This document shows positions 7,390 to 41,307 of a stretch of DNA of 64,000 nucleotides, one piece after another. Positions within the stretch are counted from its first letter, which is position 1, and each line of letters starts with the position of its first letter. The notes beneath the pieces were generated by a model. The model was given only the letters and a program-made list of their open reading frames with translations. It searched no databases and was not told the origin of the DNA. The stretch is from Gonapodya sp. JEL0774. Its lineage: Eukaryota; Monoblepharomycota; Monoblepharidomycetes; Monoblepharidales; Gonapodyaceae. Where the stretch lies: assembly GCA_027604505.1 (NCBI GenBank), contig JADIIX010000033.1:62001-126000 (forward strand), in the 5' to 3' direction. The position numbers and the translations under genes were made by a program.

Positions 7390-8567
7390 CTATTTCTCTA
7401 CTTCTGTGTCAAGATCCCTGCTCCTCTCCCGGAAGTACATGAACTTCCACCCTATGGGAATGAGCACTGTAGCAATAACAATCTTAACGGCATCACCTGT
7501 TCCATTGTGGAAAGGGAAAAGAAACAGCGGAAGCAATGAACATGCGAGTCTTAGCCTCATATATAGCACTCTCGCGAGTGAGAACGTACCCGGCAGGAAA
7601 GGGAGAACGCCTTTCGTGAAAGCAACGTTGGCGCTGTTTAGCTTGACGCCAAGCCATATCCCTCCAATGAGGTAGATAATAATATTTCCAAGAATCATCG
7701 TTGCAGCTGTGGTAATGAACCGCTTGTCGGCGCCGAATCGGCGGGAAAGCGAGCCCACGACACACCCAGCGATTGGGAAGGAAATCAAGAACCCGCATGT
7801 GGGGCCAGAAAATGTTGTCCAGCCGGATTTCTGTGCTGTAAAATGGGCAAAAGCAGGTTCGAGACAAGGCAGAACAGATGTATGGAAGAGGTGGAGAACA
7901 AGTGACTCACCAGCAAAGAATGGTGCGCCAGCGATACCAACCAGGTCATAAAAGAATGGAATGGCGAATCCCCAGATTGGACCCGCAAGGGAGCCAATGA
8001 ACAAAACGGCGAACGTCTGCATAGTTACGGGCACTGTTTTGTCGGTGTCCCAAGGCAGGTAGAAGGACATTTGTGCACACGCTGCGAGGAATAGAACCGA
8101 AATGATGCCAAGAAGCAATGGAACCGTATATTTGGCGTAAGGAACACGGTCGAGAACTTGACCGAGTACGGAAAAGTATGTAGGTTGGCTGATCCGCAGG
8201 TTTGATTTGAAATTCGAGAAAGAAATATCATTCATTGAACTTCACGAAGCAAGACTCACCGCTTGAGACGCATTCGCACAGCATCTCCTTCGGGGTTGAG
8301 CTCGGCATCGTCCGGAAGAGGTTGTCCATCCGATCCCAAGAGGCTGGCATTGTTAGGGTCTTCCACAAGTTCTGGAAAACACGACCACACGATCGTTATC
8401 AGGACGATTGGGGCGATACTTGAATGATTCTCACCTCGGTAGTTGGAAAAGATTCGATGGCGAAGCGACTGGACTGTGACCTTTCCTGACACAGCGAACG
8501 ACACAGGTTTTGATTTGAATTGGGGGAGGACTCGGATCCGACGGGTTCCAAGAAGTTCCAGCGACAT
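7390..8567 (-). CDS. BioY-family biotin transporter with N-terminal extension
   Basis: Predicted biotin uptake protein of the BioY family, a membrane S-component family best known in bacteria. Five exons, 8567-8435, 8371-8260, 8188-7911, 7835-7590 and 7496-7390, give 291 aa. About six hydrophobic segments follow residue 85. BioY hallmarks read across the splice junctions: PVTMQTFAVL near the first helices, LAGPIWGF, the FFAG loop, SGPTCGFL and PFLPGD before the last helix. Normal BioY is about 190 aa. The extra N-terminal 80 residues are soluble, with TVQSLRHRI and DGQPLPDDAEL, faintly like a ubiquitin-type beta-grasp fold. No ECF ATPase or EcfT gene is nearby, so it would act alone. A biotin ligase gene lies 30 kb away. 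Confidence 0.85.
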
Positions 8568-11954: not shown

Positions 11955-14053
11955 TTAAGCAAAAGTAACACCCGCGGCTTTGCGAGCTTGATCCACCACA
12001 TCCATGATGGCTAAAGTTTTCTCCTCGTCCCATCTTCTACCTGTAACTTGGATGCCCACCGGGGCATTGAAGAACGCTTCGGGTGAGTAAAATTCTTTGA
12101 TCGCGGCTTCGATCTCATTCCGTGGTTCGTAGGTGGGGTCCACGGTGTCACTTGGGCGAACAAGAGTTGCGGGTATGATGCCAGTCGGCAGATCAAGAAC
12201 GTTGAAGATTATCTGGTCGTGTGTGAATGTGAGTGATTAAACGTCCAATAAAAATGCTTCAGAACACTCTACTTAGTCACCGTGTAATTGTAGTATATGT
12301 TCTTGTTGTGTGGAGGAGCTGGATATGGTGCTTGTGGCGTGATGATGGCATCGACTTTGAAGAGGCAGAGTGAATCCCATGCACCGATGGTCACACCAGT
12401 TATTCGAGAACATCTCACATTCATGTTTGTTCCACTCGTCAAGCCATGTATCCCTCAACGCATCCTTCTTTTTGGCCAGTTGCCAAAACTGGTAGGTGCT
12501 CAGAGACTTTGATCCATCGATCATTCCCTTAATAACCGGCAAGAAAGGCTCTCCCCCTTGTTTCGGTAAATGATTGTGAGCGATGCCACTAAAGATAAAT
12601 ACAACAACCAAATTACTCACCCAGACTGACATCTCTCGAAATATCCTCGCCACCATCGGCAGTCCAGAGCCCAAACGCGACTTCTCCTGCCTCCTGAATC
12701 CTGAGTTTGCTCACATCAATCGCCACGACCTCGTGCCCCGCTTTCTCCAGAGCGTCCAACGTTTCCTTCATAGCACGCTCGACAGGCGCGACAGGCCTCA
12801 CGTGGCCGTTGTCTACGTAGTATCCGAACTTGAGCTTACTTGGCAGTGTCACTGCTCTCCACGGGATTGGGGGGCATGCGTGGTCGAGTAGCCACGGCTG
12901 GCTGTCGACAACGGCCTTCATGAAAATTGTGCAGGATTCGACCGAGTGTGTGAGTGGGCCCAGCACCGAGAGAATGGCTTCTTGCTGTGTCATAGCGTTT
13001 GTGAAGAGAATGGTGAGGATGCAAGGCAACGGTGGTCGGTACTTTCAGACTTACACCAGTCAGGGAATTCTTTGCTCCCTTGTAGGGGACACGGTTGTTT
13101 GATGGCTTGAATCCATAGAGCCCATTGAAAGAGCTCGGTATCCTGTGCAACAAACGTCATCTGAGCATCACGTAAAGCCATCTCTAGGCGTCATCGTGCA
13201 TAGCCACATCATCTCACCTTATCGAACCACCGATATCACTCCCCACGCCAATTGGCGATCCTCTGAGGGCAACTAGTGCACCCTCGCCACCTGAAGAGCC
13301 ACCACAGGTAAGGCTTGTGTTGTAGGGGTTGGTAGTGAGCCCGAAAACGGGATTGGTGGTCTCTCCAACCATCAGCGATTGGGGAATGTTCGTGCGAACG
13401 TAGGGTACTGCGCCTGCATTTTTGAGAATCTTGACAACGACGGAGTCTGCAAGGTGGAGGTGTATCGTGAGGGCAGTTCCACATGGCTCGAACCTGAAAG
13501 TGTAACTCACCTTCCTCGGCAATTTGGCCTGCCCAGCCCGCATATCCCATCGTCGTATCCACTCCTTGCACGCAGAGTTGGTCTTTGAGAGAGACTGGTA
13601 AGCCGTGCAGTGGGCCTACGGGCTTCCCAGTCTTGGCAAGGTGATCGTCCAACTCTTTCGCTCGCGCGTACGCCTTGTCGAGGAAGATCTCCGTCAGACA
13701 ATTAGTGAGCTGATCCGCAATGAGGGCGCGTTTTGCGAACGCTTGGACCACCGCGAGCGATGACCATTCGCCCGACGACAATTTTCGGAGGAGGTCTGGC
13801 ACGTCGGTGGACGTGATGAGCAGTTCTTGAGCAGACAGCAGGCCAGACTTTTCGGGAAAGTCAATGACAGCGAGTGCGCTGGAAGACTTGCTGGAAATGA
13901 TCAACTCGGGCGGGATGGCTGACTTTTTGGCAGCCAGCTTCGCCTGCAACCAAGTGAAAGCTGATGAAACCCAAAGGATTACGTTTGATGGTACGATCGA
14001 CAACTGACATCGCGCACGCTTTCCCAATTCTTGTTTTCGGAAGTCGCCAACAT
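11955..14053 (-). CDS. amidase (amidase-signature family, acetamidase/FAAH-like)
   Basis: Serine hydrolase that cleaves amide bonds. Eight exons, 14053-14009, 13943-13511, 13446-13218, 13142-13055, 12984-12621, 12556-12419, 12354-12281 and 12212-11955; 542 aa, normal for fungal members. The Ser-cisSer-Lys triad is visible: Lys in VSLKDQ, the cis-Ser in GGSSGGEGA and the nucleophile region in GVGSDIGGS. Other family landmarks are GPLHGLPVS, NGLYGFKPS, VLGPLTHSV and ITPQAPYPAP. The first exon encodes only 15 residues. Upstream ATGs in other frames were discarded because only this start gives NWESVRD joined to AKLAAKK. The physiological amide is unknown. Its start lies 132 bp from a divergent gene. 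Confidence 0.92.
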
Positions 14054-14185
14054 TGAACTGTGCTAAGAGGAATGGCGAGGTGGAGAAACGCATTTCGGCC
14101 CCACTTCCGCCGACCCGATCGTGGCACAAGCCGCCTGCGGACTTCACCTCTGACGTTTACTCGAACTAACTAACGCTTCTGCTAA
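14054..14185. promoter_or_regulatory. compact bidirectional promoter
   Basis: Only 132 bases separate the start codons of the amidase (minus) and the RS-rich family member (plus), so they must share a promoter region. No motif identified. Confidence 0.45.
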
Positions 14186-15510
14186 ATGGGGAAATCCACC
14201 AAGAAGTTCAAAAATTGGCAGAGAGTGAACATGAATTCCTCATCATCCCGCACCCCTGAACGGAGTCCGGAGCGAGGCCGAAGTCGCAGGAGAGGGAGAC
14301 GTAAATTTTCAACTGAGAGGCGGCGGGGCTCGTCATCGTACTCGCGGCGAAGTTTCAGTAGGAGTCCTCCCAGGAAGAGATTCAAAGGCAGAAACCCTCG
14401 GTCTCCGTCTCCTCGCACTCTGTCTCTGTCTCTGTCTCCTCCCCTGCGTACTACTTCTCGACGTTCTCTGTCCCGCTCTCCTGGTTTCTCACGAAAAACC
14501 ACGCGTCGCGGTCGCTCTTCGCTTCAAAGGACGGTAATCTCGAACATCCAGCGTGACAGGGCGGTAGTCTTTTCTCTGGTCGAGTGCATGGAGCAGCTCA
14601 TGTTGCTATCCGCCCGTGTATCTGATCTCCCTCGAATCTACGCCACCCACTACAATCGAGAGCTGTCTTGGAAGCCTGCTAATCGTAACGCTACGTTTGT
14701 GGAATGGTTTCGGGACGTTGTGGATCGGGAATCACGAGCAAGGCGAAAGGACGGAGACGAAACACTCACGAATCGCACATTTATTTTTCTGGATGATGTT
14801 GGAGCCGACGGGTGGTGTCGCTTACGAACGGGGTCCAATTTCGTGCACAAGAAACTGGCAACTCACGCCCGCGCTCTCGCGCGATCGATGATAATTGTCA
14901 AGGAAACGAAAAATATAGAAGCTGGTTTGCTCGCGGACGTCCTCCGACTGACTGTTCCCGACGGGGAATACGTGTTTGATGAGATTTGCAGGTGGGCTGC
15001 CGTCCGTCCCTTCGATTTTTGCTCTGCGGTGGTGTTTGATGGAAATTTACTCTCATCTCAAACGACAGTGTTCTGTTTGCCCTTTTCGAAGTAGATATAA
15101 TTGCTCTATTCAGCTACGACCCTCAAGCAGCCGTCTCCGCTTGTGCCGCTGCCGCTCCGTTTTGGCTGTGGGGCGCCAATGGGACCGTTATGGTTCGCGG
15201 ACGGGCCACCTTGTCTCCGACTGTTGCTGTCTCATCTGTCGCATCTCTTTTCCCTGTGCTTAGCAATACCAAGCCGCTGTTGGTATCTTCGGCGACAACA
15301 CAGGCGAGGCCGTCACTGCCTTTGCAGGCTGCGAGCGACCCTCTCCAACCGTCCCATCAATACGAGCCAGCTGCTTCAGCCCCTGGACCGGTGGTAGCTG
15401 CTGCTTCTGTATCTCCTGAAGCCCTCTCCGGTGGTAGGAGACGGGACCCAACACACAGGGCAATAATCAGAGGATTTTGGCGAGTGTGGAAGGCCCCCCT
15501 GTTGGTGTGA
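14186..15510 (+). CDS. RS-rich protein with winged-helix-like module (unrecognised family, member 1)
   Basis: Not recognised as a known family. Two exons, 14186-14991 and 15114-15510, give 400 aa. Residues 1-115 are Arg/Ser-rich with many RS, RSP and SPR motifs, as in splicing-related SR proteins. Then comes a globular part: ARVSDLPRIY, FVEWFRDVV, FIFLDDVGADGWCRLR and LRLTVPDGEYVFDEI. The same ordered motifs occur in the minus-strand genes at 23-24.2 kb and 24.5-26.6 kb, for example READLLKLF, GASGWLRLK and LLLPGSYTLTEI. The helical pattern and the short hydrophobic turn before the Gly-Tyr resemble tandem winged helices. The Ala/Ser/Pro-rich tail ends in GFWRVWKAPLLV. A nucleic-acid role is only inferred. 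Confidence 0.7.
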
Positions 15511-22461: not shown

Positions 22462-22977
22462 GTGCACGCGGTACATTGAACAGGCCCAGAATCACGTCGC
22501 CATGGCAGCTGGTCTCTACATAGTCGAATGGTCTCTGCATAATCATTCCTAGCGACTCAAATTATCATACTTGTAGGAGCAGAGTGGGGGGATCACTAAT
22601 ACAATCAATACCAATGGAACGGTTCACACGTGATTTGCCAATATAATCGAAGTGTCGCCCTATGATTATCTTTCCTAACAACAATATCTTGTTGCTCATT
22701 TTCAGTGTGACAGTTGATGAAATTCGCTTTCTGGTGCATTGCTGCAATTCTATCTTCAGAGGATTTAAAGACCACAACTGGAGACATGTCAGCTACAGGG
22801 AATTAAAGTGAATAAGTGGATCAGATATCAGCCACCATTGCAAATTTCAAAGTAGTGGCAATTACCATCAATTCGAGGGTCCACAGTTTCCAAATATGCT
22901 TTCCTCAAAATACGAGTACACCTGACTTAAGTCTATATCGATTACAGATGCCAATATGCTAAAGAGAGACGAATGCT
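22462..22977. other. AT-rich intergenic region
   Basis: 516 AT-rich bases between the rhodopsin and a decaying minus-strand gene. I see no gene. The last exon of the minus-strand gene, if intact, might extend into it. Confidence 0.4.
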
Positions 22978-24205
22978 TCAAAGCAACAACAGGTTCTTGC
23001 TGCTTAAGTTGCGAACGTACTCATCAATTGATTCCAATGTACCAGGATACAATAGAGCTCGACAGCACCGACTCATCAACTCTTTTATTGGAACGGCGTC
23101 TCTTACAGCTTGCACATCGTCGATCATGCTCCCAATCGCTTGGGCGAAGGACTTTCGAGTTGGATTCATCGTGATCATATTGCAACCTGTCTTTATTCGA
23201 ATTAAAGCACCTTCCCCAATAACAGCAAAAGCGGCATCTGGAGTGCTGGGACTTCGCTCACACGCAACTTTGTCCACTAGAACCAGGAAAAGAAATCACC
23301 ATCTTCCGCATTCCAATTTACTTTTAAGTGAGGTGGGCACATAAGTGGTAAATCTTGAGAGCGAACGCAGATTATTTGCTCCGAGACAAACGTATCCACC
23401 AGCCCTTCCACAACTTGCTGCCTCTCATGGCCAATCGCCCGAATGGACGGTGAGAGAGACGATGCACTTCTTGAGAGGCAGCTGTCATCCTGAACATCAA
23501 TCCTAGTGTCAATCGTAGTGCGCGGTGTGTTTATTGAAGGTTGCACAGCAGACGGCTGTACTCTTCCTACTGGCAGGGAGGCAGAGGGTGCTCTGAAGCT
23601 GGAATATCCAGAAGGATTCCGATTTCCACTCCGATTGCGATGTCTGCTTCGTCGTCCTTTTTCTGTGGCCCGCTCCTGCTGTCGCAGTCCGCTCTCCACG
23701 ACACGACGAGTGCTCCGAAAATCTTCCCACCGTGGAGCACCAACACGAACTGCGTGCTAGGTGAAGGCTCTTCCACCCTGATATTCCAGAAGGTCAGGCC
23801 GCCACTCTGAAATTGCTCCAAGTCCTCGTTTCATATCCCCATCATCAACATTCATGTCCGGGAATACAGCTCGGAATGCCTGCAGTAACTGCGACACGGA
23901 GTACATTCCGGGCGGAAACAGACTGTACAGTATCCATTTGAAGGCTTCCGCGTCTTCTTTGGGACTTCTGCCTCGCCTGAGGTCACGAATTCTATCCTCC
24001 GAAGCAACGAAGAGCGCCCGTGAATGAACCGAGTCGAACGTGGACAAGAGACGCACACCGGAGTGTTGTTGATTGCTCCGTCTATAAAACTGTCGATTGT
24101 AGGAACCTTTCGACGGAAGCTCTTTGCCAGGTGAAAGACCCCAGGTGTCCTTCCCGTAAGTGCAATCGAGAGTTCATCAGAGATTCTTCTTTCATCGATT
24201 TCCAT
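22978..24205 (-). pseudogene. RS/winged-helix family member 2, apparently decaying
   Basis: Same family as the genes at 14.2 kb and 24.5-26.6 kb. The part of the model that can be followed is exon A 24205-24059, a 62-nt intron, then a frame from 23996. Motifs in order: FIDGAINNTP, LYSLFPPGMYSVSQL, WRPDLLEYQGG, an Arg-rich linker (RRSRHRNRSGNRN), LVDTFVSEQIICVRSQDL, FFSWF, AVIGEGALIRIK and ALLYPGTLESIDEY. Two lesions relative to the neighbour: an in-frame TAG at 23757-23759 after GGRAFT, and a shift of frame just after FFSWF (about 23275). The TAG could be removed by a 54-nt intron from CAGG|GTGGAAG to GGGAAG|AT, which keeps frame. The second lesion has no good intron. Start and end are those of the visible homology. 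Confidence 0.6.
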
Positions 24206-24483: not shown

Positions 24484-26572
24484 TTACAGATCATAAGGCT
24501 CCCTGATCACATCCCAACAAGTTCTGACATGAGCAGCAGTTATTCGCAACTTCCCACTTTGTACGTTGCTTTGGCTGTCGATGACGGGGTCAGAGAGCTG
24601 CATCACAGCGTCGATCATTTTGGCCGCTTGGGCGACTTTGAGAGCCTCGAACTTCTCTTCGCGGTTCCGATAAATGGTCACCGTATCGTTAACTGCATCG
24701 ACAGATGCTCGAGGATCAGTCCGTTCGAAGTACAGCTTTGCCTCGTCACGATTGCCTTGCCAAATTTCCTCCAAGTCAAATGTAAAAATTGCCCAAAAGA
24801 CACTGACAAAAGAGTATCACCATCCATTTTCTTGACAAAAATAACGGATCACCACCACGCACTCTGAGATTTCCGTTAACGTGTATGATCCGGGAAGTAA
24901 TAGGGTGCGAAATGCTTTGCTGACAGTATCTTCAGGAGGTATCGATTCTGTCGCATTCCGCATAGTTGTGTTCATTTGTACCACTTCATCAACGAAGTCA
25001 CGGCGTTGTTGATTGCTTCGTGCCAAGGGTGAGGTGGACTTAAGTCGCAGCCAACCGGATGCTCCCGTCGATTCCAAGCTCACAAACGGCGGATTCTCCT
25101 CGCTTCCAGCATCAAGTTCTTTGCCAACTAAAGCAACAATGTTCCAGAACCAACTGGTCAAGTTCTCTCCAGGCACGTATGGCGGTATGGTCCTCCAATC
25201 AAAACTGCCACCCAAAGCGAAGAGCTTCAGCAAGTCCGCCTCTCTGGCGCACACAACACGTTCCGCGACAAAAGCATCTAAAAGTCTTTCCAGGCAACGT
25301 CGCCGTAGGTTCTGTGGTGTCATGTCATGGCGGAGCGAGAGGGAATTATTTGCAAGAGGGCTCAAGCCACGTCTCCGATCTGGGGTTGCATCTTGTCGAC
25401 GCAGTGGAGTTATGGTGTTAGTTCTAGTTGTGGCTGGAGAATTCTCCGTGGACGAAGCAATCATGGTGGGGGAGCCACCAGAGCGATAAGTAGAGGTGGC
25501 ACCACGAACTGGAGGTGAAGCGGGTCGCCGATGGCGAGATTGACTTCTTCCCTGAGACTGACTTCTTGCTCGGGATTGATGCCTGCTTCGGGACTCGCTT
25601 CTACCTCGGGAATGATTTCTGCCTCGGGATTGGTGTCTGCTTCGGGATTCGTCTCTGCCTCGGGATTGATTTTGACCTCGAGACTGATCCCTCACGCGGT
25701 GCTGGCTTCTTCCCCGTTCTCGCATATCATCCCAGTCGTCATTCCGCCGCTGAGGACTTGATGGGCTTGAAGAAGGGCTCCGCCTTCTCTTTCTGCTTAA
25801 ACCCTCATCTCGGCCTCGTCCTCGGGTGCTCTCTTCCCTTCGACCGTCTATGTCGCCTCCTCTCCTTTCCTCGAACCGATCCCCGCGTATGTGACGCTCT
25901 CGGTCTTCTTCCACAAGTCTCGTCTCTTCGGGCACACGTAATCCGTGCGGAAATAAGCGGACCTTTTTCATTTTCTGGAATGAACTTCCATGGCGTTGGA
26001 TGAGTTGAGGTTCCCTCACTGCCAAACGGTTGAGCACTAGTTCAAAGTCCGCTTCTACGAGTGAACCTTTAAATATGGATGAGTATGCATTGCGAAACTG
26101 CGACAGGGCATACGTGCTGCTTGACCCGTCACTAACGGTGCATGTGTACAATCCAACAGAACACGGCGGCTCACCCAGGTCGAAAAAGATGATATGTAAA
26201 CCACTCAGATTCCTCCTCACTCGTCGGTCGTCGCTGCTGCATCTCGATGGACTCTTCGTGTAGGTACAAGAAATTGGGAGCATGGTACATTTGCCTACTG
26301 TCTGGTAACTTGCAAGAGCGGATCCCCGACTGAGTGTGAAATTGATATCCAACAGCAAAAACCCGTTGTGCGGCTTCGCGGAACTCGTTGCTTCGGGGTT
26401 CATTGTGATTATTCATAACCAACTGAGAAAACCGTAATTAGGGGGTGAGGATAACTGGGTTAGTCGAAATGACGCTCACTGATTTCAAAGCCACTGACGG
26501 ACAAAGCAGGCCCTTGCGCTCGCGAAGTATGGAAACGATGACGCTCAGAACCTCCTGCTCTGCAGAACTCAT
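24484..26572 (-). CDS. RS-rich protein with two winged-helix-like modules (unrecognised family, full-length member 3)
   Basis: Not a family I can name. Four exons, 26572-26480, 26422-26175, 26119-24863 and 24802-24484; 638 aa. Module 1 (residues 1-165) has VIVSILRERKGLLCPS, LFRPGSTYALSQFRNAYSSIF and LNRLAVREPQLIQRHGSSF. A linker of about 160 residues is full of SRGR, SRSRHQS and RSRS. Module 2 repeats the plan: LERLLDAFVAERVVCAREAD, LTSWFWNIVALVGKEL, FVSLESTGASGWLRLK and LLLPGSYTLTEISDVFWAIF. A helical tail follows (VAQAAKMIDAVMQLSD). The repeated pattern of a helix, PG-Y turn, helix, then L..L....P.L with Gly-Phe looks like a winged helix of LOTUS/OST-HTH size, which is inference. It is divergent from CLF1. 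Confidence 0.75.
25530..25700 (-). repeat. imperfect minisatellite encoding RS repeats
   Basis: About seven imperfect copies of a unit of roughly 24 bases; on the plus strand each reads close to CGGGATTGATTTCTGCCT. On the minus strand they encode repeats such as SRGRxxSRSRHQ in the RS linker of the family member. Confidence 0.7.
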
Positions 26573-26794: not shown

Positions 26795-29771
26795 ATGTCT
26801 AACCGAGAAGCTCGAATATCGAAAGTACGCTTGAGTGGAAACATCTCTAGCTGTTCACTCCTTGGTGTTCTTTATCCCAACGCTGCGCATGGCCTGTCAA
26901 TCTCCGTCCACATCACGTGCTTCACAGGTCAAAAACAAGAATCCAGCTGCAATCCAGATTACTGCTGAGCAGATCCTTCGTGAAGCCAATCAGTTTCAGG
27001 AGGCACCCCCAAAAATCCCTCAGCAGAAGATTGTGGACAAAGAGGAACTTGACGAGTACAAGCTCAAGAAACGGAAGGAGTTCGAGGACAAGGTTAGACG
27101 CAACAGGACTCACATTGGACATTGGATTAAATATGCTAGCTGGGAGGAGAGTCAGCATGAGTACGAAAGGTGAGTTGCACGATATCCAAACCGAAACGAG
27201 AACTACTATTTTCTGAACCAAAGACCCCCTTTTCGCGGTCTGTTGATATCAGAGCTCGCTCGATCTATGAGCGTACTCTTGATGTTGACCACCGCAATCC
27301 GGCGGTCTGGATCAACTATGCTAATATGGAGATGAAGCACCGCAACGTTAATCATGCGCGGAACATATGGGACCGCGCCGTCCAAATTCTTCCCCGAGTT
27401 GACATGTTCTGGTACAAGTACACTTACATGGAGGAAGTCTTGGGCAACGTTGCGGGGGCGAGGCAAGTCTTTGAAAGATGGATGTCGTGGGAGCCCTCGG
27501 AAGAGGCTTGGAACTCGTATATTAAGTTCGAGAAAAGGTGAGCTTTAATTCCACTCTACAGTGATGAAAAGTGGTGGTTCAAATCTGCTTGTGGCTTTCA
27601 GGTACAAGGAGTTCGGCCGTGCGCGACAGGTGTTTGAGCGGTTCGTCTCTTTGCACCCGGAACCCAAGAATTGGCTCAAATGGGCCAAGTTCGAAGAGGA
27701 GCAAGCAGAACTTGGTATGTGACTGATGATAGGGAAAACAGCGCACTTGGGGCGGCGGCCTTGCGGAGCACCTTAATTGATACACTTGCACCAAACGATA
27801 AATTTTCCAGACCGTGTCCGGGCCATTTTTGAACAATGCATTGACCACATTGACACCGTCTCGCGCCAATCCGGTGATACCTCGGTCTTAGACCCCTCCA
27901 TCTTCGTGGCGTTTGCCAAGTTCGAAGTCCGCCAAAAGGAAATGGACCGAGCACGAGCTATATACAAGTACGCGCTGGAGCGTGTGCCCAAGGCAGGTGG
28001 CAAGCTTGATGCGTTACAAGATGCATACGCTCTGTTTGAGAAGCAGCATGGGGAAAGAGAGGGCATTGAGGATGTCATCACGCAGAAGCGGAGGGTAAAA
28101 TATGAGGAGGTAAAGTAGCTACTGGCGTTGCGCTTTGGTGGGGGATTACACAATGTTAAGCCCATTTCTGTCACTGCTGTAGGAGCTGGTGGAGAACTCT
28201 CACGACTACGACACGTGGTTCGACTTTGCACGGTTGGAGGAATCGGCAGGGGATGCTGCTCGCATTCGCGAAATCTACGAACGGGCAATTGCACAGGTGC
28301 CTCCTCTTCAGGAGAAGCGATATTGGAAGCGGTACATTTACCTTTGGTTGTTTTATGCCGTGTGGGAGGAACGAGATGCCAAGGTACGTAATGACCGACC
28401 ATTTCTCGGATTTCACGAAATCAACTCTTCCTTCTGCTCACAGGATCTGGAACGTGCCCAGGAAGTCTACGAGCAGTGTCTTAAAATTATCCCACACAAG
28501 AAGTTTACTTTTGCCAAGGTCTGGCTGCTGTACGCCGACCACCTAATCCGCCGTGGTGATGTTGCGAAGGCGCGTAAGAACTTGGGTGCCGCTTTGGGTA
28601 TGTGTCCAAAAGAAAAGCTGTTCCGGGGATATATCGAGCTCGAGCTTCGCCTGCGAGAGTTTGATCGCGCCCGAACCCTATACGAGAAGTATTTGGAGTG
28701 GAGTCCTGCCAACTGCTACGCATGGATCAAGTACGCCGAATTGGAGCGGATGCTTGGTGATACTGATCGGTCTCGGGGTATTTTCGAGATTGCAGTGCAG
28801 CAGCCCACTCTGGATATGCCAGAGGTTCTTTGGAAGGGATTTATTGATTTTGAAGTAGGAGAAGAAGAGTGGGAAAATGCTAGGGGACTCTATGAGAGAT
28901 TGTTGAAGAGAACCGAACACGTGAAGGTGATCATGAAGTCAATTGATCGGACTGCTTTCTTGCTTTCTTGAACGGTTTTCTGATGGTGTTTGCAGGTTTG
29001 GATTTCATTTGCTAACTTTGAGGCATCTGCAACCGATGTGGAGCCATACCAACGACTGGTGAATGCACGGGCAGTATTTGAACGGGCTCAAAACATCCTA
29101 AAACGTCGTGGCGCTGACTTGAAAGAGGAACGAGTGGTTCTGATGGAGTCGTGGAAGGACTTTGAAAGAACGTATGGCGATGCGGAGTCGTTGAGTAAAA
29201 TCGAAAGTAGGATGCCCAAAGTTGTCAAAAAGAGGCGGAGAGTTGAGGAGACTGGGGCGTGGGAGGAGTACATGGACTATGTATTCCCTGAAGATGAGGC
29301 GGAGCAAAAGCCCGCTCTGAAGCTGTTGCAGATGGTGAGTTTAGTGCTCATGGCTGAATTTGTTCATCTTCTATGTAGGCTAAACCAGTGTTTCTCCCTA
29401 CTCAGGCTCATCTCTGGAAGCGACAACAACAACAAAAATCCTTTGTGCGTGCATCCTCGGCTGAGAATGACGGCGAAAATGCAGATGGTGAGGCAAGAAG
29501 TGCTGGACGGTCAATGCTCGGAGTTGGAGGTATTTTTGGCGCTGCCCTGGAAGAGGCAAGAGTTGAGGAAGCGAGAAACGAAGAGGAAATGGATATACCA
29601 GACGCGGAAGAGGATGGAGATGGCGGGGATGAGGGGGACGAGGAGGATGACGAGAATAATGCGCAGAATGGGGAGAATGGCAGCATTGGAAAGCCCGCCG
29701 GCTCTGCGATAGATAGAGCGAATGGGTCCTCGGAAATGGACACTAACGAAGCAAGTGAAAATGTCCGATAG
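26795..29771 (+). CDS. CLF1: pre-mRNA splicing factor CLF1 (Crooked-neck/CRNKL1)
   Basis: HAT-repeat scaffold of the Prp19/NTC complex, essential for spliceosome activation. Nine exons, 26795-26824, 26928-27169, 27253-27537, 27602-27714, 27811-28109, 28183-28383, 28444-28926, 28996-29334 and 29406-29771; 785 aa. N-terminal motif [19 protein letters not shown] is diagnostic. About 15 HAT repeats follow (for example [49 protein letters not shown]). The C-terminal tail after MDYVFPEDE is acidic and Gly/Asn-rich. The first exon is just 30 nt, so the start depends on splicing [10 protein letters not shown] to VKNKNP. The next gene, also spliceosome-associated, starts 94 bases downstream on the same strand. 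Confidence 0.95.
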
Positions 29772-38592: not shown

Positions 38593-41307
38593 TCATCGTT
38601 TCTGTACAATCAGTCCTTTCATCATATCAAACCCATTTCCATCAGGACCAAGTAACACCTCTTCATCCTCCCCAACCACAGATCTTCCAAGAACAACTGC
38701 CGCACCCGACCCATCCCCCACAATTTGCCCGACTCCATGTCTGTCCAAAATCTTGCGACATCTGAGATATCCATTCGAGTCTACCCCGACAATCTTCCAC
38801 TTCCCTTGCAGACCCTCCACACCCACGATCTGGTCCTGGTGGATCCAATACTTTTTGTATCGCTCAACAAGTGGCTCAAAACCCCGCTCGAGATAGAGGG
38901 TATACAAAACAGCGAAGTGGTGGAGGAAACGGGCGAGAACTTTTTCTTGCGTGAAGGGAGCACGCGGTTCTGAAGTCGGGGGCAGTTGTTCAAGCAGGGT
39001 GTTGAGACAAGTGGACGGTTGGCGATTAGCGACATTGAGGCCATGACCTAGAAAGCAAAATTGTGATAACATTGGAGAGTGTTTTGTTGTTGGTCGGAGG
39101 TGATAAGGCGTATCGCAACTCCGACCTTAATTTCAAAACTCAAGACTCACCAACCACCAGCACAAATGTATCATTTACGTAACTTGAGTTCACCAAAATT
39201 CCACCGAGCTTCTTTAAAACCTTTTGTTTGACCTTTTCGCCGTTGTCGTCAACCACTTCGACTGCCTCGTATCCGTACACATCGTTGGGCCACTTCACAA
39301 CCACGGGCATCTCTTCACACCCATCAAAGCTTCTCACAGCCTCTGCCGTGGCAATAGCCACGATGTATTGAACGAACACCACGGAAGGTGCCGACCGGGG
39401 GTGTCGGAGGAGGAAAGAGAATTGCAGGCACCCGGCGGGGGAGATCCACGAGTTGCGCCCGCGGGCTCGGCTGGCGGATTGGTTGGAAGAGACCGCGGTA
39501 AAGCCATCAGGGAGAAAATTGGCGAGGTTTGGGTTTCTGTCGTAGCGGAGAAAAAATCGTGGAGGGGTCTCATCAGTTGATATCCGAAGCGGTCCATCAC
39601 ACTCGTGGACACACGAACTTATCAAGTAGGGTCTGTGTGCTCGGCATCACCTCTCCATACCAAAGTATCCTTCCCAACTTCAGCTTGGGTGCCTCACTTC
39701 CGTATTTCTTCTCAACATCCTTCACCGCCTTCCAATACTCCCCCAAACTAAAGAGTGGCGTAGTCGAGGCAGGTGGATATCCAGTCCTGTACACCACCGT
39801 TGACAGTGTCTGCTTTTTCCCGGGGGGTGGCTGAATCGGGCCAGCAACGGAGGGGGGAACAGTGAGTTTGGGAAGAGAGGAACTGGCACGGGCATCGGCG
39901 TACTGCTGTTTAATGTCTGCGAGTCGAAGTGTCCGGATGAGGTTCTCAGCCTTTTCCACGTCTTTTGATGGAGCAGCGGCTGTCGAATTGCTGATAGCGG
40001 GACGGCCGCCTGATTCGAGGAACTCAAACTCATACGTGAGGTCCTGGAACACTCGCACAGGACTATCATCCACGAGCTTGATCTTCGAATTATCGTATAC
40101 TCCTCTCATCATTGCTCCCGATGCTTCCGGGTCGTAAAAGCTTAGGTGTTGGTTTGAGGCAGGGGGGAAGCCAAACTGCGAGACCACCCCAGCAGCTGAT
40201 ACACGCGGGTTCTCTGAGTCCATGTTCGCGGCAAGTGCTAACGCGTCAAAAATACCCGCTGGACCACCGGCAATGGCGCGGGACAGGAGTGAGAGATGTG
40301 GGTCTGTTGGAGGGAGGGGTTCCGGGGAGAGGACGTCGACGGGTCCTGATATGGAGAGACCCATAGAACGGAAGACGCTTCGAAGCCATGCTTTGCGCTT
40401 GCGTTCCGTCTTCAGAAGCTCTGGAATGACGGCGCTGTCGAGGCGAGAGTCGTGTACTCCCCGTGCGAGCAGATCCCCGTCGTACTCGATGTGCACCCCC
40501 GTGACAAGGGCGACGCCGCGACCAACACGGCAAAGGGCAATAGCGGGTGCGTTCGCGGTACCGTCAAAGACGGGATCAGCGTAGGTAGCCAGAATAGACT
40601 GGGTATGAGACGGTGGGAGGTCGGGGGTGGGCAGGAGGAAGCAACCGCCGTTGTGGTAGATATTGAGTGTGACAGGGGGCGATTGCCGGTCGGCAGCTAC
40701 AGCGGCGTCGTCGGCCAAGTTTGTTGCGATGTGGATTGGTACAGCCCTGGCACCCTCCTCCGAGTCGTAGACGAAACCTGGGAACGCGCTTCCCTTTGCG
40801 ACTCCTCTAAAAAATTGTAGCTTTCGATCTCCGACAACCTCGTAGTTTTTACGCCCGACCTCAAACTCGAGTCGCGTGCACGCAAAGTAGGCGCCTGCAC
40901 AGATACCGAGGTAACGACCGCCTCCGTGGACGTAAGCCGAGATGAGGCTGATTTGCGTTGGGAAAGGTTTCGAAATGAGAGATGGCGAGACAAATTTGGT
41001 TGATGGAGAGAATCAACGACGTTGAATTGCATGCTGAATGAATATCCATTCCGTTCCCTTCCTCCATTGAAAGTGAGTTCTCAACTCACCCCATCCCCTT
41101 CTCCCCGAGTTCCTTGACATAAGGCAGATCCCTTCCACCAGGTACGACAATCATTGCAGCTGAATCGGTCCAGGGCTCTTCAAGAATCGTCTTTGCGTCT
41201 ACCTGCATGACATCGTATGTCGACCCGAGGATCGATTTCAGCGTGGACATGGTGTGCATGACAGAGGATTTGGCCGTACCCGGCCCCGAGTAGACAAGGA
41301 CATTCAT
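38593..41307 (-). CDS. BPL1: biotin--protein ligase (holocarboxylase synthetase)
   Basis: Attaches biotin to carboxylases (acetyl-CoA and pyruvate carboxylase) via biotinyl-AMP. Four exons, 41307-41090, 40947-39619, 39536-39151 and 39047-38593; 795 aa. The N-terminal class-I amidotransferase-like domain typical of fungal Bpl1 is clear: MNVLVYSGPGTAKSSV, VPGGRDLPYV, GICAGAYF. The ligase core has STQTLLDKN, a degenerate biotin loop GRGRNSWISP-type (read here as SRARGRNSWISP), SLKWPNDVY-type VVVKWPNDVYG, KLGGILVNS and VGHGLNVANRQPST. The C-terminal cap domain ends VGVDSNGYLRCR. The start was set at the ATG before NVLVYSGPG because the frame upstream has no ATG. A biotin transporter lies 30 kb away. 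Confidence 0.93.

Follow-up and report, generated by a model that had tools for sequence, protein, structure and literature searches.

The 64,000-nucleotide stretch of the Gonapodya sp. JEL0774 genome analyzed here (the window; contig JADIIX010000033.1, positions 62,001 to 126,000 of the forward strand) carries three genes, termed A, B and C, that form a real and locally duplicated protein family. A module of roughly 200 residues is common to all three. Gene A joins an N-terminal half to this module through a stretch rich in arginine and serine (R/S-rich, or RS-like), gene B has the same layout with a poorer R/S stretch and a broken reading frame, and gene C combines an RS-like N-terminus with one module of the same type. 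In the comparisons below, A1 and B1 denote the N-terminal halves of A and B, and A2 and B2 their C-terminal modules.

Gene A (24484..26572, minus strand) is read from exons 26572-26480, 26422-26175, 26116-24863 and 24802-24484, and its spliced reading is open to the stop, giving a product of 637 amino acids plus stop (the 638 of a preliminary description of this locus included the stop). Its three introns of 57, 58 and 60 bases all run from GT to AG, and each of the four introns of A and C is 57 to 77 bases long with the same GT start and AG end. The N-terminal half opens with A1 sub-domain 1 (residues 6-87; 26255..26557, minus strand), whose last ~25 residues, from 63, are covered by the local alignment with B and the remainder by the global alignment only. 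It continues with A1 sub-domain 2 (residues 100-170, with LFRPGTY; 25948..26218, minus strand), a putative winged helix that falls within the A1-B1 similarity (z 16), has a counterpart in B predicted to be a winged helix and contains the intron at 26174-26117. The RS-like linker follows (residues 172-382; 25312..25944, minus strand), with a core at residues 265-314 that reaches 60% arginine plus serine (R+S). Behind it, A2 sub-domain 1 (residues 383-474; 25036..25311, minus strand) contains AREADLL, WF and GASGWLRL and is predicted by AlphaFold2 to be a winged helix, while A2 sub-domain 2 (residues 507-578, LLLPGSYTLTEIS; 24664..24939, minus strand), probably also a winged helix, aligns with B2 and C, has weak profile similarity to sub-domain 2 of A1 and B1 and contains the intron at 24862-24803 that is shared by the family.

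Gene C (14186..15510, plus strand) encodes 415 amino acids in exons 14186-14991 and 15069-15510, with a spliced reading open to the stop and a single intron of 77 bases bounded by GT and AG. Its RS-like region (residues 1-116; 14186..14533, plus strand) reaches 70% R+S in both 20- and 30-residue windows, and its A2-type module (residues 117-313; 14534..15201, plus strand) is supported by the local alignment with A2 and by a three-row alignment and contains the shared intron, here at 14992-15068.

Gene B (22605..24205, minus strand), composed of B1, a weakly R/S-rich stretch and B2, shares its strand with A, follows it directly downstream and resembles it over most of its length. It had first been placed at 22978-24205, and an intact gene there is not confirmed: the frame is interrupted by a TAG at 23759-23757 and changes near 23280 and again near 22893, with the alignment to A resuming on either side, and the similarity to A extends beyond 22978. 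A possible third frame change near 24070 is conditional on the frame from 24205 being the N-terminus, and the stretch in that frame has no statistically significant similarity to A. The outer ends of B are uncertain, as the first ~45 residues fall outside the local alignment with A and the last ~55 align with it weakly, at a score that 54 of 2000 shuffles equal or exceed. Because three or four disruptions occur within 1.6 kb, the plain reading of B is that it is a pseudogene, which we regard as probable, and the stop and frame changes rule out a family of three intact members. Two introns of B, at 23020-22959 and 22865-22793, retain their GT and AG ends despite the disruption, so the damage looks recent or the product of assembly errors, which could conceivably be the source of the disruptions.

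The common ancestry of A, B and C is shown by Smith-Waterman local alignments compared with 1000 shuffles, in which no shuffle reached the score for A2-B2 (z 32.0), A2-C (z 13.1), B2-C (z 8.1) or A1-B1 (z 16.4), bearing out the initial proposal that the three genes are paralogous. Weak similarity was found for A2-B1 (2 of 1000 shuffles reach the score) and A1-A2 (8 of 1000), and the A1-B2, A1-C, B1-B2 and B1-C alignments were at chance level. Over the module, the paralogues are 25-28% identical in the three-row alignment, and A2, B2 and C each have a phase-2 intron at one and the same alignment position, just past the PG-x-Y segment. Identities at codon positions 1, 2 and 3 are 0.45, 0.48 and 0.28 for A2-C (191 codons), 0.50, 0.50 and 0.27 for A2-B2 (137 codons), and 0.39, 0.48 and 0.27 for B2-C (132 codons); positions 1 and 2 are conserved and position 3 is near random, so it is the protein and not the DNA that has been kept. 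Codon usage gave a weak and mixed signal, with the own frame coming out on top for 5 of the 11 segments tested.

The motifs that first drew attention to these genes are kept in part. Their common order stands for A ([AV]RxxDL at residue 404, WF at 436, GAxGW[LC]RL at 465, then PGSY at 522) and for C (143, 174 and 206, then PDGEY), but not for B, which retains VRSQDL and WF but reads GEGALIRI and PGTL at the positions of the other two. The PG-Y-x(5)F motif named in the preliminary description was not recovered, as neither A, nor C, nor any of the three B frame pieces searched contains PG.Y.{5}F when the pattern is taken literally. The full motif set had been reported twice in A, on both sides of the linker. 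The first half of A contains WF (105) and PGTY (113) and neither AREADLL nor GWLRL, which rules out a complete duplicated set; the full set occurs once and the PG-x-Y part alone recurs. The two halves resemble each other only over ~25-33 residues around PG-x-Y, in keeping with the 8 of 1000 shuffles noted above. Profile-profile comparison with hhalign gave a probability of 8.7% (E 0.0038) for the whole halves, 39% (E 0.0003) for the second sub-domains alone, and no match between the first sub-domains. A history of A as a duplicated module is thus only weakly supported at the level of sequence.

The arginine- and serine-rich character of these proteins was assessed in windows of 20, 30 and 50 residues. 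In 20 residues, the maximum R+S content is 70% in C (R 45%, S 25%), 65% in A (R 30%, S 35%) and only 55% in the linker of B, so that the description of the linkers as Arg-Ser-rich is upheld for A and C. PMC9479744 counts a protein as SR-related when S+R makes up 70% or more of a 20-residue window, with 20% or more of each residue, and treats lower values as still enriched; by this measure C lies on the border of the SR-related class and A below it. The A linker has a net charge of +23 and an isoelectric point (pI) of 11.8, and the RS-like region of C a net charge of +35 and a pI of 12.0. By a dipeptide-excess criterion of our own, RS and SR dipeptides are not above composition in the A linker (19 versus 15.7 in shuffles, p 0.19) or in C (15 versus 13.9, p 0.43). 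Five of the 498 open frames of at least 100 amino acids in the 179-kb contig have a 50-residue window with at least 50% R+S; genes A and C are the two inside the window and the three others lie outside it. In A as well as in C, the stretch directly precedes a module of the A2 type, which is the best sign that the two are not paired by accident. Another R/S-rich frame, at the start of the contig (L010:7090-7479, plus strand), has long RS/SR runs and 60% R+S in 50 residues, and is absent among the module-profile matches on the contig.

AlphaFold2 models were obtained from very shallow alignments of four sequences for A2 sub-domain 1 (model 1) and two for B1 sub-domain 2 (model 2). Model 1 (predicted local distance difference test, pLDDT, 66; predicted template-modeling score, pTM, 0.60) places helices at 10-28, 35-43 and 62-78 and strands at 32-34 and 98-100, with one wing strand unresolved, and model 2 (pLDDT 71, pTM 0.61) places helices at 38-52, 60-70 and 78-91 and strands at 56-59, 96-99 and 108-111. 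Judged against the winged-helix topology of helix-strand-helix-helix-strand-strand, both sub-domains are predicted to be winged helices, and the remaining sub-domains presumably are as well. The earlier suggestion that the modules are winged-helix pairs is therefore supported by prediction for two sub-domains and extended to the others by inference. Foldseek returned no match with E at or below 0.001 for either model, and many of the structural neighbors among the matches listed for both are what we take to be winged-helix proteins.

Searches for known relatives agreed with the initial impression that no described family has this layout, and the family accordingly looks young and local. Pfam and NCBIfam scans of the module segments (A1, A2, part of B1, B2 and C, with the R/S-rich linkers excluded) gave only matches far below the cut-offs, the best at E 0.032, under HMMER filters that drop most weak matches; no named domain family reaches its cut-off for the modules. 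A set of 5.8 billion proteins, in which a candidate had to share words with the query and measure between 0.55 and 1.75 of its length, supplied 1567 candidates for A residues 385-600 and 4105 for the A2/B2/C alignment, and none of them matched with an E of 10 or below. An exon of the neighboring CLF1 gene, used as a control against the same set, gave 410 relatives, the named ones including fungi, animals and plants, with a best identity of 75% among the 120 matches listed; the set thus covers eukaryotes but seems to be without a close relative of the source organism. With no close relative in the set and a family that diverges as fast as its paralogue identity implies, the null result is weak evidence. 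Sequences of solved structures gave nothing convincing (best E values 2, 0.12 and 0.066, all chance-like, and otherwise no match), and 111 pattern stretches in viral contigs included no relatives.

A word-based search of the organism's own genome (25.0 Mb, 381 contigs) with A1 returned pieces of A and B1 (E 8.6e-5), with A2 pieces of A and a weak piece of B2 (E 0.054), and with C only itself. No locus besides A, B and C was found in this search, which missed the relation between A and C, and more distant paralogues are therefore possible. The module profiles had no above-threshold match in the remaining 115 kb of the contig (best E 1.4).

Taken as a whole, the family may be a small, fast-diverging and locally duplicated group of SR-related nuclear proteins whose winged-helix pair docks on another protein, a reading that we put forward tentatively and would not yet call probable. 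The core would be a winged-helix pair of about 200 residues right behind an R/S-rich, probably disordered stretch, to which A, and B before its decay, would add a second and more distant winged-helix pair at the N-terminus. The RS-like stretch would be phosphorylated by SR-type kinases and carry the protein to the nucleus and to RNA-processing bodies, while the pair would dock on another protein, such as a helicase or a splicing-complex subunit, rather than grip DNA or RNA. We infer the disorder of the stretch, the docking and the role in RNA processing, and the RS-like composition suggests the nuclear, RNA-processing location. Many winged helices bind nucleic acid, and the pairs could instead bind DNA or RNA directly with the RS-like stretch adding non-specific affinity, which we consider somewhat unlikely; the winged-helix topology of both models, the strongly basic linkers of A and C and the basic A1 sub-domains (pI 9.2) would fit this. 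Docking on protein is favored because the presumed recognition helices of A2 (LTSWFWNIVALVGKELD) and B1 (DGDMKRGLGAISEW) are non-basic and because sub-domain 2 of both A2 and C is acidic (pI 4.3 and 4.1). A2 sub-domain 1 (pI 5.4), B1 sub-domain 2 (pI 5.1) and B2 sub-domain 1 (pI 4.6) are acidic as well. The basic A1 sub-domains, together with a mildly basic C sub-domain 1, make the preference a lean and no proof. The locus could also be a decaying local cluster of orphan genes without a conserved function, with B broken and A and C drifting, as the in-frame stop of B and its two or more frame changes, the failure to find relatives in the large protein set and the 25-28% identity over the module might suggest. 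The conservation of codon positions 1 and 2 between A2 and C over a near-random position 3, and frames that stay open over 637 codons in A and 415 in C, argue against this, and we think such a cluster unlikely.

LOTUS domains have a winged-helix-like fold in which a helix and a strand are followed by two further helices and a wing, and our models are similar to it in size and order; LOTUS domains outside the eLOTUS class bind RNA. Like LOTUS/OST-HTH proteins such as Oskar, TDRD5, TDRD7 and MARF1, the family is predicted to have small winged-helix-like modules, and it might be a far-diverged branch with a helicase partner or RNA-binding activity. The available text of PMC5458760 reports LOTUS domains in fungi as well, and describes the eLOTUS domain of Oskar as binding the DEAD-box helicase Vasa, with no RNA binding detected; that of PMC6168497 describes six LOTUS domains in tandem in Drosophila MARF1. 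Unlike these proteins, A, B and C have modules that are pairs of dissimilar sub-domains beside RS-like stretches, and the segments scanned gave no match to Tudor, NYN or RRM domains, nor one to PF12872 (OST-HTH) with an E of 10 or below. A whole-genome search with the OST-HTH profile was empty, though no control gave a match either, and the absence of a recognized LOTUS structure among the 50 matches listed per fold comparison excludes nothing. Descent from LOTUS is, on balance, distinctly unlikely. Descent from Cdt1 or kinship with it, as a winged-helix pair of the replication type, appears highly improbable. The C-terminal winged helix of Cdt1 is among the top structural neighbors of both models, with a Z close to that of other winged helices and no sequence match. 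The CDT1 and CDT1_C profiles matched none of the modules, nor anything in the whole genome, where CDT1 also missed all 14 controls and CDT1_C matched only that from B. subtilis, below cut-off, so that the genome-wide negative does not demonstrate absence. In the reading that we prefer, docking of an SR-related protein through its winged-helix pair would by analogy resemble the eLOTUS-Vasa complex of PMC5458760.

The family is like SR-related proteins in its R/S-rich stretches and unlike them in that these are joined to predicted winged helices, with no known domain in the segments scanned; no RRM was found in the module segments of A and C, the linkers being outside that scan. The word "winged" does not occur in the main text of PMC9479744 on SR-related proteins. 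The parts are of known kinds, and their combination, a winged-helix pair with an RS-like stretch and without an RRM, was not met in the available text of the top open PMC literature matches. A more specific proposal, which we regard as doubtful, is a lineage-specific, RRM-free class of SR-related proteins in which the winged-helix pair replaces the RRM and would dock on an RNA helicase or on a subunit of the spliceosome, in the way that eLOTUS docks on Vasa, the RS-like stretch bringing it to the processing machinery. If confirmed in relatives, the family would add this domain pairing and offer a concrete handle on nuclear adaptor proteins built by poorly studied lineages, and if the genes are only a local orphan cluster, they would reflect ordinary fast gene turnover.

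Several neighboring genes were recognized. The splicing-factor gene CLF1/CRNKL1 (26889-29712, plus strand), with a Syf1/CRNKL1 HAT-repeat match in frame 28189-28971, is head-to-head with gene A and starts ~0.3 kb from the start of A (taking its start codon, judged by eye, to lie near 26889); a promoter common to both would fit this arrangement. An open frame that matches amidase (13236-14147, minus strand) lies head-to-head with gene C; the upstream edge of this frame, as distinct from its start codon, is ~40 bases from the start of C. Elsewhere, the window contains a BioY-family frame (7390-8235, minus strand; E 7.4e-23), which we take to encode a bacterial-type biotin transporter, and the N-terminal frame of a biotin-protein ligase (39597-40718, minus strand; E 5e-16).
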